Source of the DNA: an uncultured Spirochaetaceae bacterium
GTDB lineage: Bacteria; Spirochaetota; Spirochaetia; Sphaerochaetales; Sphaerochaetaceae
NCBI GenBank assembly: GCA_944389025.1
Contig: CALXKU010000003.1
Span: 62,001 to 126,000 of the forward strand
Reading direction: 5' to 3'
Length of the DNA stretch: 64,000 nt
Of this stretch, positions 1-26,020 are shown piece after piece; position 1 is the first letter of the stretch, and each line of letters begins with the position of its first letter. The notes under the pieces were generated by a model. That model was given only the letters and a program-made list of their open reading frames with translations. It did no database searches and had not been told where the DNA came from. A program made the position numbers and the translations under genes.

Positions 1-1
1 G

Positions 2-334
2 GAGTTCATCATGTGGATGGTATCTCCTGAGGTGCAGGCCGAGTGGGCTATGGCGACAGGTTATCTCCCTGTGAACAAGAAATCTCTTGAACTTGATTCT
101 TATAAGGAGTTCGTCGCTGCAAGTCCTGCAGTAAGCGTAGCTCTTGAGCAGCTCATGGAAGCCCTCCCTTCAACCCAGGAGACTGTCATGAACATGCAGG
201 ATGAGATCAGCGGTTACATCAAGACTGCTGCGACCGATGTAAAGAACGGTACGATCTCTGCAGAAGAGGCTGTGGATAGGATTATCGCTGAATCCGAGCA
301 GGCGTTCAGTACCTACAACAGGGCAAACCAGTAG
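2..334 (+). CDS. Sugar ABC transporter substrate-binding protein, C-terminal part
   Basis: The reading frame is open from the window edge, so only the last 110 residues are visible. The segment with WMVSPEVQAEWA followed by TGYLPVN is the hallmark C-terminal lobe of family 1 extracellular solute-binding proteins (UgpB/MalE type), which deliver sugars or glycerol-phosphate to an ABC permease in the inner membrane. Downstream lie sugar-isomerase and nucleoside genes in the same direction, so it probably closes the transport part of that operon. The ligand cannot be told from this fragment; permease genes would have to lie upstream of the window. Confidence 0.8.
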   Translation, partial: EFIMWMVSPEVQAEWAMATGYLPVNKKSLELDSYKEFVAASPAVSVALEQLMEALPSTQETVMNMQDEISGYIKTAATDVKNGTISAEEAVDRIIAESEQAFSTYNRANQ

Positions 335-382: not shown

Positions 383-1258
383 ATGCGGCTTTCCACATCC
401 ACGAACATCTATCTGAGACGTCCGGGTAATCGTTTTGCTGAAATAGAGGAGTCCATGAAGGTCTGTGCAAAAGCAGGATTCAGGGTGATGGATCTCAATT
501 TCTACGATGCTACCTCGTTCCATCTTGAGTTCATGTCACCTGCATGGGAAAGCTGGGCGAAAAGGGTAAAGGATCTGGCCGCGGAGCTTGGCATCGAGTT
601 CAGCCAGGCTCACTCCAGTTTTTATAATTTCTGCGAACCTGATATTCCGGATTGGGAATATTGGGAGACGTCTGTTAGAAGAAGTGTTCAAGCCGCAGAA
701 ATCATAGGAATTCCATGGATCGTGATTCATGCCGGAACCGCATTCGATGCCGAGGATTACAGGAAGGAATCCCGGAAAAGGAACATAGCATACTTCAGAC
801 CACTTCTTGCATTCGCCGCAGAGCATGATATAGGCCTTGCGATAGAGAACCTATGGGATCTCGCCATCAGGCCGAGGCGGAGGTATACGGCCAACGCTGA
901 GGAGCTGATGGAGCTTGTCACGGCTTTGGATGCTTATGGTGACGGGCGTGTCGGTACATGCTGGGATTTCGAACATGCGGACATAATGGGACAGAGCCAG
1001 AGGGAAGGGCTCTTGCTACTTGGCAAAAGTCTGAAATGCACTCACGTATCGGACCAGACCGGGATAAACAATGACCATATACTCCCTCTTTACGGCTCGA
1101 CAGACTGGAAAGAGTGCGTTGGCCTTCTCAGGGAGATCGGATACGAGGGGGATTTCACCTTCGAAATGCACCGCTATGGCATGAATACCCCCGAGCCTCT
1201 CATTCTTGATGCCCTGCGCTATAGCATAAAGGTTGGAGAATACATCCTTTCACTTTAG
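383..1258 (+). CDS. Sugar phosphate isomerase/epimerase (TIM barrel, AP_endonuc_2 family)
   Basis: The 291-residue protein has the xylose-isomerase-like TIM barrel of COG1082. The pattern of metal ligands is visible in order: the strand end VIHAGT, LAIENLW with its Glu, TCWDFEH with Asp and His, THVSD, and the terminal Glu in FTFEMHR. Family members isomerise or epimerise free or phosphorylated sugars, often inositol, tagatose or unusual ketoses. The AAGGAG ribosome site 6 nt before the ATG fixes the start. It lies 48 bp after the binding-protein gene and 9 bp before the SIS gene, so it is operonic. The substrate is unknown. Confidence 0.8.
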   Translation: MRLSTSTNIYLRRPGNRFAEIEESMKVCAKAGFRVMDLNFYDATSFHLEFMSPAWESWAKRVKDLAAELGIEFSQAHSSFYNFCEPDIPDWEYWETSVRRSVQAAEIIGIPWIVIHAGTAFDAEDYRKESRKRNIAYFRPLLAFAAEHDIGLAIENLWDLAIRPRRRYTANAEELMELVTALDAYGDGRVGTCWDFEHADIMGQSQREGLLLLGKSLKCTHVSDQTGINNDHILPLYGSTDWKECVGLLREIGYEGDFTFEMHRYGMNTPEPLILDALRYSIKVGEYILSL

Positions 1259-1267
1259 GAGAAATGA

Positions 1268-2386
1268 ATGAATGAGTACATGGGCCTGATAAACCAGGTC
1301 AGAAGCCTTCCTGAGCTTATCAGGAATCAGTATGAGGATCTTGAAAGGAAGACAAGGAGCGCTTTAAGCACACCTGAGATTTTCAAGGTAATGCGTGTGA
1401 CACTCACCGGATGCGGGGACTCGTATGCAGCTTCCCTGGCAGTAAGGGATGCGTTTGCAAGTCTTACAGGATTAGCTGTGGATGTGATCCCATCCATAGA
1501 ACTGAGCAGGAGCTATGACAGGTCGTTCTTCGGATGGGCGCCGCTCAATCCGCTTGTGATAGCCGTAAGTAATTCTGGAAGCGTTGCAAGGGTTGCAGAG
1601 GCAATAAGCCGTGCCTCAAAATACGGTGCTTTCACGCTTGGTGTGACGGGTAACCGCAAAAGCCCACTTGCTGAGGCATCAAGTCGTATCCTTGACCTTG
1701 ACATTCCTTCATTTGAAGCCGCACCTGGGACTAGGTCATACGTGGTATCAGTTCTTGCATTACTTCTTCTTGCGATCAGAATCGGAGAGGTAAGGGGACG
1801 TTACAGCATGGATGAGGCGATGAGAATGAGGCTTGATATACTATCTCAGGCAGATGAGCTTGAAAGGCTTCTTCCATCAATTGAAAGTGAAATGAAAGAA
1901 CTTTCAATAAGATGGGCAGATCTTGATGGCTATGATTTCATAGGAACAGGAATGGAGTTCGGAAGTGCCTGGTATGCTCATGCGAAAGTCCTTGAAATGC
2001 TGGGAAAGTACTCCTCCTATAAGAACTCGGAGGATTGGCTCCATACGAATCTTTTCCTGAGGAACAATCATAAAACCGGTACTCTCGTATTCTCAGATGA
2101 CCGCAATGGTGCGTATGGCAGAACAGAAGAGCTCATCGGTTATGCCTCAAAGCTTGAGCGTCCGCTTCTTGTCATTGGTGACACTGATGAGGATGTTCCT
2201 TCTATCCGTACTCCGAAGACAGAATATTTATTCAATTCGGCTCTTACGGATTTCACTCCTGTCAACATACTCTTGAACCACATAGCAAATGCTATTGGAG
2301 AAGAGGACGGAAGGGGGTGCAAGGGTGTCTGGAAGATAGCAGATGGTGCCAAGTGCATCAGAGAGAGTGAGATTAAGATACTTTGA
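1268..2386 (+). CDS. SIS domain sugar isomerase/deaminase-like protein
   Basis: A protein of 372 residues with two SIS (sugar isomerase) domains as in GlmS C-terminal and FrlB/AgaS-type proteins. The first shows LTGCGDSYAASLA near residues 47-59 and the loop AVSNSGSVARV near 100, the classical phosphosugar-binding Ser/Thr pattern. The second domain, from about residue 215, has FIGTGMEFGSAWYAHAK, typical of fructosamine deglycase-like proteins. Likely role is isomerisation or deamination of an amino or ketose phosphate in the cytoplasm. The start lies 9 bp after the preceding gene and the end abuts yjbQ, so co-transcription is likely. Confidence 0.78.
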   Translation: MNEYMGLINQVRSLPELIRNQYEDLERKTRSALSTPEIFKVMRVTLTGCGDSYAASLAVRDAFASLTGLAVDVIPSIELSRSYDRSFFGWAPLNPLVIAVSNSGSVARVAEAISRASKYGAFTLGVTGNRKSPLAEASSRILDLDIPSFEAAPGTRSYVVSVLALLLLAIRIGEVRGRYSMDEAMRMRLDILSQADELERLLPSIESEMKELSIRWADLDGYDFIGTGMEFGSAWYAHAKVLEMLGKYSSYKNSEDWLHTNLFLRNNHKTGTLVFSDDRNGAYGRTEELIGYASKLERPLLVIGDTDEDVPSIRTPKTEYLFNSALTDFTPVNILLNHIANAIGEEDGRGCKGVWKIADGAKCIRESEIKIL

Positions 2387-2393
2387 GGTGATT

Positions 2394-2813
2394 ATGTACA
2401 GGGAAATAGGAATAAGCACGACGAGTGAAGACGGGCTTTATGAGATTACGGACGATGTGAGGAAAACTGTTGAAGAAAGCGGTGTCAGGGAAGGCCTCTG
2501 CATCGTATATTCTCCGCATACAACGGCAGCTGTGACGGTAACATCACGCATGGACTTAAACGGATTCGAGGATCTTAAGGATGAGATAAGAAGACTTGTT
2601 CCAACGAGGGTCGATTTCAAGCATCAGGCAGACACCCCCAGTGATGCTGCAGGTCATATTAAATCAGCTCTCATCGGCGTGGAGAAGATATTCATCGTGC
2701 ACGATGGTAACCTTATTCTGGGATCATCCCAGGGGATATTCTTCATGGAGTTCGACGGACCGAGAAAACGCAAGGTTTCTGTGATGGTAACTCGTCATGA
2801 TAGTACGTGTTGA
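2394..2813 (+). CDS. yjbQ: YjbQ family (UPF0047) protein
   Basis: A 139-residue YjbQ/UPF0047 protein. The family signature is clear: YSPHTTAAVTVTS, then NGFEDL, then HQADTPSDAAGHIKSAL with the conserved His residues, and a C-terminal LGSSQGIFFMEFDGPR strand. E. coli YjbQ has weak thiamine-phosphate synthase activity, but the physiological role is unsettled. The start was placed at the ATG preceded by GAGGTG rather than at an upstream in-frame ATG that would overlap the SIS gene. The 3' end overlaps the next gene by 17 bp, so translation is probably coupled. Confidence 0.85.
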   Translation: MYREIGISTTSEDGLYEITDDVRKTVEESGVREGLCIVYSPHTTAAVTVTSRMDLNGFEDLKDEIRRLVPTRVDFKHQADTPSDAAGHIKSALIGVEKIFIVHDGNLILGSSQGIFFMEFDGPRKRKVSVMVTRHDSTC

Positions 2814-3582
2814 GAAGAGTGCTGAGATATTCCGTATCGACAAGGCAGGGGAGAGGCATCTTAACATATATAAGGGATGCCCGATCGGCTGTCCTTTCTG
2901 CTATTGGCAGGCCGATCCCAGCTGGAACGGGTATCTATATGTCTATAGCGATGTCAGAGAACGGCTTGAAGCGGAGATAGGCTCCGTCCCCCCATCTTCC
3001 TTAATCAGGTTGAGCTATGGGCCTCTGGAGAAGGAGTGGCGGCTTGCACGCAGCTGCATCTCGCTCCTGCTTGAGCATGGCATGCGCCTCATAATATCTT
3101 CCGACTACCCGGAAATCCTTGATGATATCGGGATGCTTTCCTCCCATAAGGAGCAGGTAAAGGTCATTATCGAGCTTTCGAAATTCAAAGCCATGGATGA
3201 GTTCAACAGAAGTGGAAGCAACATGTATTTCGATATCGCGAATGAGCTGAGAAGGAACGGAATCGATGTGTCTGCGACTGTCTCCCCGGTGCTTCCAGGC
3301 ATTACCGATGTGGAGGAGATTGCAAGGCATCTTCCGTCCATCCCAGTGCATATATCGCTTCTTGATGTGAGGCCGGGAACGCTCTGGGGTGAGAATACGC
3401 TCTCATACGTAAGAGACAACTATCCTGAGCTTTATCAGGATTATCTGGCAATATCTGAGTCTGGACGTGATCCATATTACGAGAGCCTTTACGAGAAATA
3501 TAAGGATGGGAAAGGACAGATACGGACCGATCTGCCATTTTACGATACGCGCCCAAAAGGGAATGCTGATGCGATCAGATGA
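2797..3582 (+). CDS. Radical SAM protein (SplB-like, CX3CX2C)
   Basis: A protein of 261 residues with a radical SAM cluster motif CPIGCPFCYW at about residues 29-38, inside the sequence YKGCPIGCPFCYWQ. The rest fits a compact SAM barrel: a basic-then-acidic LIRLSYGPLEKEW strand, ISSDYPEI, STVSPVLPGIT and LLDVRPG. It is closest in style to COG1533 (spore photoproduct lyase-like) enzymes, whose members cleave or rearrange nucleobases and nucleosides. It overlaps yjbQ by 17 bp and is followed 15 bp later by a nucleoside hydrolase, so a nucleobase or nucleoside substrate is a reasonable inference. The reaction is unknown. Confidence 0.75.
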   Translation: MIVRVEKSAEIFRIDKAGERHLNIYKGCPIGCPFCYWQADPSWNGYLYVYSDVRERLEAEIGSVPPSSLIRLSYGPLEKEWRLARSCISLLLEHGMRLIISSDYPEILDDIGMLSSHKEQVKVIIELSKFKAMDEFNRSGSNMYFDIANELRRNGIDVSATVSPVLPGITDVEEIARHLPSIPVHISLLDVRPGTLWGENTLSYVRDNYPELYQDYLAISESGRDPYYESLYEKYKDGKGQIRTDLPFYDTRPKGNADAIR

Positions 3583-3597
3583 GAAAGGAGTGAAATA

Positions 3598-4545
3598 GTG
3601 AAAAAGAAGATCATACTTGACTGCGATCCCGGAATGGATGACTCAATGGCGATAGTCATGGCTGCCAAGTCGGATGTGCTGAGCCTTCTTGCGGTTACGA
3701 CCTTGAATGGAAACTATCCTGCTGATGTGACTGCGAAGAATGCGCTCAAGGTCGTTGAGATGCTTGGCATTGACATCCCTGTTGCGAAAGGAATGAGTGA
3801 GCCGATGGTCCGTTCATCTCCTCAAGATCCCTTCACCCACGGCAGTGACGGGCAGGCGGATATAAATCTTCCGGAGCCGGAAAGGAGGCTTTCTCCTTTG
3901 CATGCGGTGGACCTGATCATCCGTCTTGTAAGGGAGAACCCGGGGGAAGTGAGTCTTGTTTGCACAGCCCCGCTAAGCAATGTCGCAATGGCAATGAAGC
4001 TTGCCCCGGATATCAAGCCCCTGATAAAGGAGATAATAGCAATAAGCGGTTCGTTCGGACTCAATCAGGCCGCTTTTCTCAATGCCACCGGGGATACTCC
4101 GCAGAGTGAGTGGAATGTCTATGTAGATCCGGAAGCGGCTAAGATAGTCTATGAAAGCGGGGTTCCGTTCAAGGCGATCGGGCTTGATGTCGCGACATTT
4201 TTCAGCGTCGATTTCTCTGATGATGATATTTCCCGTCTCAAAGGATCTGAGAGAAGGGAGGCAAAGTTCCTTTCAAACGCGATAGATTTCGTGAAGGGCA
4301 GGGGATACAAGGCATACTGCACATGCATAGACTGCATGGCCGTTGCATATGCGATTGATAGCTCGCTCATACGCTTTGAAAAATGCCGTGTCGGCATAGA
4401 GACCAAGGATGGACTGACACTCGGGATGACCGTCAGGGATGGGCGTCATCATCACGTATGGCAGGATCTTGAGGAAATAGAAGTGGCCGTAGACGCCGAT
4501 TACAGGCGTTTTCTGGATATGCTTGTCAGCCTGAGCATTGAATGA
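3598..4545 (+). CDS. Inosine/uridine-preferring nucleoside hydrolase family protein
   Basis: A protein of 315 residues. The N-terminal LDCDPGMDDSMAI motif is the Ca2+- and ribose-binding DxDxGxDD signature of nucleoside hydrolases, which split the N-glycosidic bond of ribonucleosides. The usual catalytic HD dipeptide in the C-terminal half is replaced here by CIDCMAVAYAID, so the aspartate is kept but the His is Ile; this could shift specificity away from the standard purine/pyrimidine nucleosides. The GTG start is chosen because AAAGGAG lies 7 nt upstream. It ends just before a deoxyribosyltransferase gene, which supports a nucleoside-processing operon. Confidence 0.82.
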   Translation: MKKKIILDCDPGMDDSMAIVMAAKSDVLSLLAVTTLNGNYPADVTAKNALKVVEMLGIDIPVAKGMSEPMVRSSPQDPFTHGSDGQADINLPEPERRLSPLHAVDLIIRLVRENPGEVSLVCTAPLSNVAMAMKLAPDIKPLIKEIIAISGSFGLNQAAFLNATGDTPQSEWNVYVDPEAAKIVYESGVPFKAIGLDVATFFSVDFSDDDISRLKGSERREAKFLSNAIDFVKGRGYKAYCTCIDCMAVAYAIDSSLIRFEKCRVGIETKDGLTLGMTVRDGRHHHVWQDLEEIEVAVDADYRRFLDMLVSLSIE

Positions 4546-4561
4546 TCAAGGAGGAATGGAG

Positions 4562-5614
4562 ATGGTAACATACCCCGAAGAGGGTCTTTATATCGCAGGA
4601 CCTGAATGTTTTTACGAAAACGGATATGAGCTCTGGTGGGCTGAGCGTAAACTTGCCGAGTTTTATGGAATTCCCGTTGTTATTCCGACATCAACGCCGT
4701 TAAAAGGGAATGCTGAAGATTTGAGGGATAACGCTTTTGAAATCTTTAACGATCTTGTTGAGAAAATGAAAGCCGCGACGGCTATAATTGCCGATCTTGA
4801 GTTCTTCAGAGGCAGTGAACCGGATGGTGGTACCATCTTTGAAATGGGCTGGCTATGGGCGAAAGGGGGATCGCTTTATGCTTTCAGCCGTGACTGCCGG
4901 ATCATGGCGGCAAAGAAGAACAACGTACGCCTTTCAGGAGATAAGGTTGTTGATTACGATGGCCGCGTACTCGGCTACCCCGATCTTCCATTCTGTCCAT
5001 CGATCTCTGCAAGTACGAAGATTATTGAAGGTGATTTTACTGATGCTCTGAAGCTTTACATGGTCGATCTTGTTGAGAAAAGAAAGCATGGTAAGATGTC
5101 TCTTTCTTCACCTGTCTTTCCTGAGCGTATTAGCAACCGGGTGTTCATAGCGACATCTAAGAGGTATGACGAAGACTACGCACAATACAGGGAAAGTGTG
5201 AGAAGCTATTACAAAGAGAGAGGATATGAGGCGGTGTTTCCTGGAGACAATCTTGATGATCTTTCGGACATAAGGGATCCGTATGCAAGAGCTGTGAGGA
5301 TATTCGATGCTAATATGACTCTTCTCTTATCATCGTCAAGCATTGTTGCGGATCTTGACGGTTACCATGGATTTGAGCCTAACAATGATGTATCGTTCGA
5401 GTGCGGAGTCGCATTCGGTGCAGGGCTAAAGTGTATCGCATTCATCTCTGATGGAAGGATCATGAGGGAAAGGATTCCACACCGCGGCTCTTCGAATATT
5501 GACTGGGCAGGCAATACGATAGAGAACTTCAATATGAGTGCGAATCTCATGTTCGGCTGCTGTTTCAACATCCTGGAAGGGGATGCTATCTCCGCACTTT
5601 CAGCATTAGCCTAG
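4562..5614 (+). CDS. Tandem nucleoside 2-deoxyribosyltransferase
   Basis: Two nucleoside 2-deoxyribosyltransferase domains are fused head to tail (about residues 3-150 and 185-348). Each copy keeps the family core: ATAIIADLEFFRG with EPDGGTIFEMG in the first, SSIVADLDGYHGFEP with DVSFECG in the second, so both catalytic Glu residues are present. The enzymes move 2-deoxyribose between nucleobases. A single domain is normally about 150 residues and works as an oligomer, so this 350-residue protein is a built-in dimer. The AAGGAGG site lies 1 nt from one ATG and 7 nt from the next; the latter (4562) is taken as start. Last gene of the operon. Confidence 0.8.
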   Translation: MVTYPEEGLYIAGPECFYENGYELWWAERKLAEFYGIPVVIPTSTPLKGNAEDLRDNAFEIFNDLVEKMKAATAIIADLEFFRGSEPDGGTIFEMGWLWAKGGSLYAFSRDCRIMAAKKNNVRLSGDKVVDYDGRVLGYPDLPFCPSISASTKIIEGDFTDALKLYMVDLVEKRKHGKMSLSSPVFPERISNRVFIATSKRYDEDYAQYRESVRSYYKERGYEAVFPGDNLDDLSDIRDPYARAVRIFDANMTLLLSSSSIVADLDGYHGFEPNNDVSFECGVAFGAGLKCIAFISDGRIMRERIPHRGSSNIDWAGNTIENFNMSANLMFGCCFNILEGDAISALSALA

Positions 5615-5750: not shown

Positions 5751-6641
5751 TTAGAACTCAATCAGCTCGTAATCCCTCACTCCTATGCCGAGAGCTTCTG
5801 CGGCCTCTATAGTATGTATTCCGTTTCTGCTCGTAACACGCTCCATGAAGTGCTCTTTCCCCGGATCGTCCGAATTCATCACGAGATCGATGCACGCCTG
5901 GTCTATTGCCACCGGATCCAGTGATGATAGGAGCCCGATATCCTTCATGCACGGGTCTTCCGCAACAGCGCAGCAGTCGCAGTCAACGGAGAGGTTCTTC
6001 ATGACGTTGATATACGCAATCCTGTCCTTGAAATGTCTTACGACACTTGAAGCGGCATCCGCCATGGCCTCTGGGAACTTAACCTTGTCCGCATGCTTCT
6101 CCCAGGTCTCATAGCGGTCATCAGTTACACCGGCAGAGTGGATCAGGGCCTTTCCTGCACGGCTTGCGCATCCGATCGATAGCTGTTTCAGCGCTCCTCC
6201 GTAGCCTCCCATCGGATGGCCTTTGAAATGGGCCAGTACAAGCATCGAGTCATAGTTCAGGATGTTTTTGCCAAGATGGTTCTCTTTCAGAACTTTTCCA
6301 TCTGGGATTTGCCATATGATATCAGGACCTTCAGCATCCATGAGATCCACATCGAAGTATTTTGTCCAGCCGTGCTCCTTTATGAGTGCCCAGTGCGATT
6401 CGGTGTTGTCCCTGACTCCGCCTGAGGCATCACCGTATGCGGTGTTGCATTCGACGACGGTTCCTTTGACTCTTTCAATCATCGCCTTCCAGAACTCGGG
6501 ATGCAGGTAGTTCTGATTGCCTTTCTCTCCGGAGTGGACCTTTACCGCAACATTTTCTGGCAGTACTATGCCAAGCTTCTCATAAGCCTCCACAACCTTT
6601 TCCGGTGTGAGCGTTCTTGTAAAATACACTTTCGATTTCAT
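5751..6641 (-). CDS. DUF362 domain protein
   Basis: The 296-residue protein matches the DUF362 family: AVKVHSGEKGN near the start, the central AHFKGHPMGGYGGALKQLSIGCASR and the C-terminal GLLSSLDPVAIDQACIDLV. The family is widespread in anaerobes and often fused to ferredoxin domains; this copy has no ferredoxin domain, but carries a DCDCCAVAEDPC cysteine cluster at about residue 214 that could bind metal. No reaction is established. It is the last gene of a five-gene minus-strand operon with two flavodoxin-type proteins and an ABM protein, so an electron-transfer or Fe-S linked role is inferred. Confidence 0.75.
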   Translation of the reverse strand: MKSKVYFTRTLTPEKVVEAYEKLGIVLPENVAVKVHSGEKGNQNYLHPEFWKAMIERVKGTVVECNTAYGDASGGVRDNTESHWALIKEHGWTKYFDVDLMDAEGPDIIWQIPDGKVLKENHLGKNILNYDSMLVLAHFKGHPMGGYGGALKQLSIGCASRAGKALIHSAGVTDDRYETWEKHADKVKFPEAMADAASSVVRHFKDRIAYINVMKNLSVDCDCCAVAEDPCMKDIGLLSSLDPVAIDQACIDLVMNSDDPGKEHFMERVTSRNGIHTIEAAEALGIGVRDYELIEF

Positions 6642-6656
6642 TATTGTTCCTCCGTT

Positions 6657-7190
6657 TTAGATACTTTTTCCGAGCTCGTATGCTTTTCTTGGGTAGTCGG
6701 TTGCCTTTGTCATTGAAAGATTTCCACACCCCTTGCCCAGTATCTCCCCGACGCTTTTGAAATTCATATAGTGGCAGAGTGTCCTGTAGTGATTTGCCAC
6801 ATCATTCATGGTCCAGTCTTTGTCATCCCATGCGGCAACGATGAGCGCTGTTCTCATTCTCTTTTCCGATAGCCGGGTGGTGAAACTGTACCACCTGTCA
6901 ATCGTCAACTTAAGCTGACTTGAGAAGCCGTAGTAGTAGAGTGGGGTGACAAGAACCATCATCTCAGATGAGAGTATCAGCTCTTCAAGAGTCGCCATAT
7001 CATCATCTTGGATGCATTTGCCATTCATGGCACACTTATCGCACCCAAGGCATGGATGGATTGAGCTCCTTGCCGCATCGAATTCCACCACCTCATGCCC
7101 TTTTTCCCTCGCTCCTCTTATGAACTCATCTGCGAGAAGATTCGAGGATCCCTTTTTATGCGGACTGCTTTTTACCACGAGAATTCTCAC
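6657..7190 (-). CDS. NADPH-dependent FMN reductase-like / iron-sulfur flavoprotein
   Basis: A protein of 177 residues with a flavodoxin-like fold: N-terminal LVVKSSPHKKGSSNLLADEF phosphate-binding loop for FMN, and LVTPLYYYGFSSQLKLTIDR, the typical FMN-reductase/WrbA-type second flavin loop. Between them CLGCDKCAMNGKC (residues 48-60) is the compact cysteine motif seen in archaeal and clostridial iron-sulfur flavoproteins, so a [4Fe-4S] cluster next to FMN is likely. It probably shuttles electrons to small acceptors in the cytoplasm. It starts 2 bp after the ABM gene and is 15 bp from the DUF362 gene. Confidence 0.8.
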   Translation of the reverse strand: MRILVVKSSPHKKGSSNLLADEFIRGAREKGHEVVEFDAARSSIHPCLGCDKCAMNGKCIQDDDMATLEELILSSEMMVLVTPLYYYGFSSQLKLTIDRWYSFTTRLSEKRMRTALIVAAWDDKDWTMNDVANHYRTLCHYMNFKSVGEILGKGCGNLSMTKATDYPRKAYELGKSI

Positions 7191-25129: not shown

Positions 25130-26020
25130 TTAAACCAGTGAATTTTCTTTTAGCGCATTCCTTTTAACTTCTTCATGGAAGAAATAATTTACAACTATCG
25201 GCTCTGAATCGAAAGGACGGTTTTCAGAGTCATCGTTTCTAAGGTATTCCAGATTTTCATCTTCGCAGAACTTTCTAAGCTCTTCATTCAAGGAGTACCA
25301 GTAGTTTCTGTTCCCTCGTATGTAGATATCCTCATAAAGAGGGTGGAGATCATTATGTTTCTCACGGATGTAATCAAGTATTCTGGGCTTGTATTCCCCT
25401 CGGAGGTTGAGGTTCTCAAGCCATATGAGATTGCATTTGTTCCTGCATTCCCTGATTATTGCCTTGCAATCCGTGATACAAGGGAAGATAGGGGATATGA
25501 AGCATGTGGTTCTTATGCCGTTCTCATGGAGCTTTTTCATTGCATTGATCTTACGCTCGATTGATACCGAGTCATCCATATCTTTTCTGAAACTGTCATC
25601 GAGTGTGTTTATGGAGAAGGATACCCTTGCATCCGGAAAAGTTCTGATGAGATCAACATCTCTGAGGACGAGATCCGATTTCGTTGCAATGCTTATGAGA
25701 GCACCGCTTCCCTGGAGCTCCTCAAGCAGTTTTCTTGTCCTTCCATACTTCTCTTCCAGAATCTGGTATGGGTCTGTGACAGAGCCGATGAAGAGTTTCT
25801 TTTTCTCATATTTTCCTGCATTCTTTATTTCTTGCCAGAACTTGACATCCACAAAACTTCCCCATGGTTCAGGATGGTTTGAGAATCTCTTCATGAAAGA
25901 GGCATAGCAGTATCTGCAACTATGAGCGCATCCCACATACGGGTTTACCGAGTAATCGGCAACCGGCAGATTGGATTTCGTCAATATGTTCTTAACTTTG
26001 ATTTCCTTCACTCGTGTCAT
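25130..26020 (-). CDS. SPL-family (COG1533) radical SAM protein
   Basis: A 296-residue radical SAM protein. CAHSCRYCYASFMKRF at about residues 31-46 is the CX3CX2C cluster-binding motif, preceded by the typical NPYVGC start of COG1533. GSVTDPYQILEEKY, TKSDLVLRDVDLI and SFSINTLDD follow the SAM-barrel order, and SPIFPCITD is the late strand. The family includes spore photoproduct lyase but most members are uncharacterised DNA or nucleotide repair-like enzymes. Divergently arranged with the TetR gene at 26136. A second, shorter SplB-like protein is at 2797-3582. Confidence 0.85.
   Translation of the reverse strand: MTRVKEIKVKNILTKSNLPVADYSVNPYVGCAHSCRYCYASFMKRFSNHPEPWGSFVDVKFWQEIKNAGKYEKKKLFIGSVTDPYQILEEKYGRTRKLLEELQGSGALISIATKSDLVLRDVDLIRTFPDARVSFSINTLDDSFRKDMDDSVSIERKINAMKKLHENGIRTTCFISPIFPCITDCKAIIRECRNKCNLIWLENLNLRGEYKPRILDYIREKHNDLHPLYEDIYIRGNRNYWYSLNEELRKFCEDENLEYLRNDDSENRPFDSEPIVVNYFFHEEVKRNALKENSLV

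Follow-up and report, generated by a model that had tools for sequence, protein, structure and literature searches.

A cross-phylum operon of nucleoside hydrolase, deoxyribosyltransferase-fold, SIS and YjbQ proteins in a Sphaerochaetaceae bacterium, a candidate unit for purine riboside catabolism

Introduction

Nucleoside 2-deoxyribosyltransferases (NDTs) classically act on 2'-deoxyribose, and ADP-ribosylglycohydrolases act on ribosyl linkages. Nucleoside hydrolases (NHs) are divided into structural groups I, II and III, which carry His, Trp and Cys, respectively, at the site before the last Asp; in group I enzymes, His241 is described as catalytic (PMC8910321). QueK, a hydrolase that releases queuine, and the queuine lyase QueL are known from gut bacteria (PMC11130926). 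Poly(ADP-ribose) and tRNA both contain disaccharide nucleosides, and 3'-O-beta-D-ribofuranosyladenosine occurs in plants (PMC6290457).

Here we describe an operon of an uncultured Spirochaetaceae bacterium that encodes an NH, an NDT-fold protein and a radical SAM protein together with double-SIS, YjbQ and TIM-barrel proteins, and compare it with these systems and with its relatives in other phyla.

Results

Operon layout

The window analysed is a stretch of 64,000 nucleotides (start at G000:C3:62001) from a 2.3-Mb genome most closely related to Spirochaetales/Sphaerochaetaceae MAGs. A simple script was used to call the genes. Six ORFs lie on one strand at 383-5614, no more than 16 nt apart or slightly overlapping, and are preceded by the end of a transporter gene:

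1..334, plus strand: 3' end of the gene for a CUT1 solute-binding protein (SBP); whole gene at L002:10976-12334, with MalF and MalG ahead
383..1258, plus strand: TIM-barrel sugar epimerase/isomerase-like protein (TIM; PF01261, E 1e-29)
1268..2386, plus strand: double-SIS phosphosugar isomerase/deglycase-like protein (SIS; PF01380, E 1.9e-12; GlmS/3knz relatives)
~2394..2813, plus strand: YjbQ (UPF0047) family protein (TIGR00149)
2797..3582, plus strand: radical SAM protein with CxxxCxxC and a spore-photoproduct-lyase-like fold (PF04055)
3598..4545, plus strand: NH of the Ile244 clade (PF01156, E 6.6e-79)
~4562..5614, plus strand: tandem NDT-fold protein (NDT; PF05014, two stretches)

The original prediction had listed six tightly packed genes of these families behind a sugar ABC binding protein. 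Both statements hold: the ORFs are on the same strand and Pfam places each in its family, and the full-length CUT1 SBP gene, which follows MalF and MalG, runs into the window and ends there. The set from TIM to NDT is the end of a longer unit that reaches a further ~5 kb beyond the start of the window. Just outside the window, minus-strand genes for GntR/UTRA and HAD proteins diverge from plus-strand MalF-MalG-SBP, and in relatives the SBP is conserved ahead of TIM/HAD. Ribosome-binding-like sequences precede TIM, NH and NDT. For NDT, a start at ATG 4562, after AAGGAGGA, is likelier than one at TTG 4538; the YjbQ gene starts near 2394. Convergent behind the operon, at 5751-7190 on the minus strand, are genes that by eye encode a DUF362-type-like protein and an NADPH-dependent-reductase/flavodoxin-like protein.

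Conservation across phyla

Known enzyme kinds make up this operon, a regulated catabolic unit conserved across phyla. Genome contigs scanned with the NH yielded 80 loci with NH relatives, which span Spirochaetota, Bacillota, Actinomycetota and Chloroflexota, plus single others. These loci were picked by NH similarity, so that the counts describe the NH neighbourhood and not independent events, and many of the contigs are short, which makes the presence counts lower bounds. NH, SIS and YjbQ occur together in at least 54 of the 80 loci and the tandem NDT in at least 45, while an ADP-ribosylglycohydrolase and a PfkB-family kinase are each present in at least 44. SIS and YjbQ are adjacent 51 times, NH and NDT 45 times, and YjbQ and NH 33 times. 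The original prediction was to fall if the genes did not stay together in relatives; a comparison of neighbourhoods contradicts this, by these adjacencies and by a common operator.

Two layouts recur. Form A consists of a CUT1 transporter, two ADP-ribosylglycohydrolases (~700 aa), PfkB, a phosphorylase-superfamily protein, SIS, YjbQ, NH and NDT, followed by DeoD/DeoB. Form B, to which the window operon belongs, comprises GntR, CUT1, HAD, TIM, SIS, YjbQ, an optional radical SAM protein, NH and NDT, and at times adds a 341-aa ADP-ribosylglycohydrolase. NH-ribokinase closes the operon in several Bacilli. Several Paenibacillus loci have SBP-MalF-MalG-NH, with the NH as the sole recognised enzyme of the set; in one of them (L066) it lies beside ribokinase. 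Two of the loci with the radical SAM gene have a member of the serine-dehydratase-alpha (SDH_alpha) family immediately ahead of NH-NDT (L006:2681-3961 and L029:8701-9972); L006 apparently has an oligopeptide-type ABC transporter in place of CUT1.

The distances of the core proteins NH, SIS, YjbQ and NDT correlate pairwise (r 0.57-0.80; 0 of 500 permutations), which fits inheritance as a unit, although species relatedness alone also gives such a correlation. The locus had been predicted to be a nucleoside- or glycoside-type catabolic unit that fits no standard pathway. This is borne out by its conservation, and in the literature searched, with most subscription journals outside its scope, we found neither a matching pathway nor a description of YjbQ, ADP-ribosylglycohydrolase, SIS and NH in combination.

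A common operator

Operons of the NH loci repeatedly have a palindromic operator, TGTATTAAnnTTAATACA, in their upstream region. The HAD-MalF intergenic region of the window operon holds TGTATTAAAGTTAATACA, which overlaps a promoter-like -10. The exact palindrome occurs once in the window genome, with one two-mismatch copy 100 bp away and another elsewhere. A search of 1.49 Mb located 6 exact sites, and 23 when up to 2 mismatches were allowed; 100 shuffled-half palindromes averaged 0 and 0.84 (maximum 6), respectively. The palindrome was defined from the same loci, so that these counts are descriptive and the shuffled set serves as the control. A search at 3 mismatches returned 43 sites, chance matches included, against ~10 in shuffled DNA, and our conclusions use 0-2 mismatches.

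In other loci, this palindrome is found ahead of SDHa-NH-NDT (L006), of an SBP-SIS-YjbQ-radical SAM operon (L029) and of NH (L016). Near-copies precede SIS-YjbQ operons in Bacilli, and looser copies are found in Actinomycetota and Chloroflexota. Because split clusters have the operator in common, the data suggest that transport/SIS/YjbQ and NH/NDT form one regulon. The GntR protein presumably binds the palindrome. Two operator-like palindromes are also located upstream of a different cluster, ATPase-MalF-MalG-SBP-HAD-GntR (L031:13133-13217 and L037:13146-13226), which may be another target, of a related regulator.

The nucleoside hydrolase

The window NH resembles the group I enzymes (RihA/RihB/RihC and Crithidia IU-NH) in its fold family, with E values down to 2.9e-47 against solved members, and in its conserved Ca-binding residues D10, D14, D15 and D245 and H81 of the beta3-alpha3 loop. 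It differs from them in having Ile for His, an 8-residue insert beside the sugar-binding loop, and Trp for Phe. The predicted change of the catalytic HD to ID is real (I244-D245) and clade-wide, with Ile ahead of the last Ca-ligand Asp in all aligned relatives. The NH thus has the Ca-binding Asp and loop His of group I without the His before the last Asp, and Ile244 likewise stands where group III has Cys before the last Ca-coordinating Asp. As judged from its sequence, the clade falls outside structural groups I-III as they are described (PMC8910321), because the site holds Ile and not His, Trp or Cys. The clade insert ATGDxPxSEWNVYVDP is conserved, as are H285 and W288.

The tandem NDT-fold protein and the SIS, TIM and YjbQ proteins

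The NDT arose by internal duplication, its halves being 28% identical over 114 aa (E 6e-11). A catalytic-type Glu is conserved in each half (E102 and E288, numbered from TTG 4538), and the best structural matches of the AlphaFold2 model (pLDDT 91) are solved NDTs (2a0k, E 1.7e-8). With the NDT fold predicted by the model and the catalytic Glu present in the sequence, the protein is a probable member of the family. Two PF05014 stretches, the internal repeat and the Glu motif in both halves accord with the duplicated deoxyribosyltransferase that had been proposed. The window protein shares the fold and one Glu motif per half with nucleoside 2-deoxyribosyltransferases, but carries its two half-sites permanently fused in tandem within a single 350-aa chain and sits in an operon set without deoxyribose enzymes.

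The TIM protein has the residues expected at the metal site of a tagatose-3-epimerase-type enzyme: E155, D195, H221 and E261 are conserved in 17 family rows. E255 and H259 of SIS are conserved, and YjbQ scores 115.8 bits with TIGR00149, above the cut-off of 67.75.

The radical SAM protein

The radical SAM protein scores 27.1 bits with PF04055, just below the cut-off of 29.5, and its model has a pLDDT of 85.6. Spore photoproduct lyase (SPL) ranks first among the Foldseek matches, with five SPL entries at E ~1e-5, and the queuine lyase 6p78 is at rank 16 (E 0.023); a comparison with 6p78 gave no sequence match. By VIA, SPL is the first match (Z 13.2, 229 aligned, rmsd 3.8); 6p78 is not among the VIA matches listed, which carries no weight either way. 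The protein matches the fold of SPL/SplB-like proteins over nearly its full chain, but has 12% identity to them, is shorter and is encoded in a catabolic operon. The gene is accessory to the operon core, because it is present in 8 of the 80 loci. A paralogous SplB/PA0069-like radical SAM gene, whose product is 24% identical to the operon's protein, lies at 25277-25951 on the minus strand.

Neighbouring genes

Purine genes, namely DeoD, purine nucleoside phosphorylase I, adenine deaminase and adenosine deaminase, directly adjoin the core in 27 loci, and the tested member of each kind scores above its NCBIfam cut-off; 52 of the 80 loci are without any of the four kinds within reach. Ribokinase and phosphopentomutase also adjoin the core and point to ribose. 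Taken together, the purine and ribose genes and the ADP-ribosylglycohydrolases point to ribosylated purine nucleosides. Pyrimidine and deoxyribose genes are nearly missing: E. coli Cdd, CodA, CodB and DeoC queries gave 0 matches in the 80 loci at E 1e-8, and DeoA gave 1, a threshold that divergent forms may escape. The deoxyribose-like substrate of the original prediction is disfavoured by the lack of a DeoC match in these loci, and the 7-deazapurine or C-nucleoside also suggested there is without the positive support that adenine-type purines have.

The window operon itself is without an ADP-ribosylglycohydrolase, a purine phosphorylase and a deaminase, all of which are encoded elsewhere in the genome. 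On the minus strand at L124:6935-12308 (G000:C4:34935-40308), a second CUT1 operon contains SBP-MalF-MalG, an ADP-ribosylglycohydrolase (453 aa) and a ribokinase-like PfkB, with a divergent LacI-like regulator alongside. The functions of form A, including ADP-ribosylglycohydrolase and kinase, are therefore present in trans in the window genome.

Discussion

Our preferred reading, to which we give about an even chance, is that the operon serves the GntR-controlled uptake and dismantling of an unusual purine riboside, most likely of adenine type, for carbon and base. After import of the riboside by the CUT1 ABC transporter, an O- or N-linked ribosyl group would be released by an ADP-ribosylglycohydrolase-fold enzyme, which many relatives encode within the operon and the window genome in its second CUT1 operon. 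The base-sugar bond may then be cut by the His-less NH and the tandem NDT-fold protein, joined in relatives by purine nucleoside phosphorylase. The sugar would enter central metabolism through ribokinase/PfkB and phosphopentomutase together with the HAD, TIM and SIS proteins, and adenine or adenosine deaminase would take the base. What the data establish is the conservation of the gene set, the common operator, the association with purine genes and the altered NH active site; the substrate and the reaction order are what we infer, as are the roles of SIS, YjbQ, TIM and the radical SAM protein. The leading specific substrate is a ribosyl-adenosine disaccharide nucleoside, an assignment whose own probability is low. 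Against the purine-riboside reading stand SIS, YjbQ and TIM, for which a plain ribosyl-adenosine pathway offers no natural place, and the classical 2'-deoxyribose substrate of NDTs, at odds with the missing DeoC. The lack of an ADP-ribosylglycohydrolase, a purine phosphorylase and a deaminase in the window operon, and the majority of loci without the four kinds of purine gene, count against it as well.

The protein kinds also match the E. coli frl (fructoselysine) operon, with which the window unit type shares a GntR/UTRA regulator, SIS, TIM epimerase and PfkB kinds. In Amadori/glycosylamine catabolism, GntR, PfkB, SIS and TIM would act like FrlR, FrlD, FrlB and FrlC on a ketosamine derived from an amine that had been ribosylated or glycated, and NH and NDT would take related N-glycosides. 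GntR is related to FrlR (E 5e-28), TIM weakly to FrlC (E 3e-6), and SIS is of the GlmS/deglycase type. However, the similarity of SIS to FrlB is weak or absent (pairwise E 1.3; profile just 24.6 bits), and FrlB and FrlC queries gave 0 matches at E 1e-8 in the 80 loci. The unit type also differs from frl in its extra NH, NDT, YjbQ, purine enzymes and ADP-ribosylglycohydrolase, and an frl-like function would leave DeoD, the adenine and adenosine deaminases and the ADP-ribosylglycohydrolase unexplained; we consider it unlikely. More generally, CUT1 transporters and GntR/LacI regulators are usually devoted to sugars, and an ordinary sugar operon could have acquired nucleoside genes through chance linkage. 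The association repeats across phyla, split clusters under the same operator included, which makes such an accident improbable.

The replacement of the catalytic-site His by Ile across the NH clade, with the Ca-binding Asp kept, would suit the salvage of nucleosides with cationic or modified bases, such as N-methylated purines from RNA or nicotinamide riboside, whose leaving group needs no acid to protonate it. For such substrates the adenine and adenosine deaminases and the ADP-ribosylglycohydrolase would be superfluous, and the conserved H285/W288 could provide an alternative acid, so that we hold this explanation, too, to be doubtful. The original prediction had raised queuosine salvage, with the NH and the radical SAM protein in the roles of QueK and QueL, and we judged it by the fold and sequence of the radical SAM protein, by linkage to tRNA-guanine transglycosylase (TGT) and by genome content. 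As in the QueK/QueL pair of hydrolase and queuine lyase known from gut bacteria (PMC11130926), NH and radical SAM genes are close together in the window operon. However, the radical SAM protein appears closer to SPL than to 6p78 in fold and is absent from the core in most relatives; a TGT gene was found in 0 of the 80 loci, and the window operon clusters with neither TGT nor a Q-precursor transporter such as QueT. A queuosine role of the operon is accordingly very improbable by fold, sequence and TGT linkage. The window genome has TGT and QueA, QueT was not found in it, and a QueC match is borderline only, in a 399-aa frame; because of this gene content (L115, L135, L136), the spirochaete may salvage a queuosine precursor through other genes and some other transporter.

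In its broadest form, the purine-riboside reading would amount to an undescribed cross-phylum pathway for ribosylated adenosines of plant, RNA or poly(ADP-ribose) origin, with ADP-ribosylglycohydrolase-fold proteins acting as catabolic ribosidases and the NH representing a fourth structural group without a leaving-group His; this is a speculative proposal with small odds of being correct in full. The operon brings the YjbQ, ADP-ribosylglycohydrolase-like, double-SIS, tandem NDT and His-less NH families into a single regulated pathway of bacteria from gut and soil. Its operator, its binding protein and the culturable hosts make the substrate directly findable, which would place YjbQ in a metabolic context.
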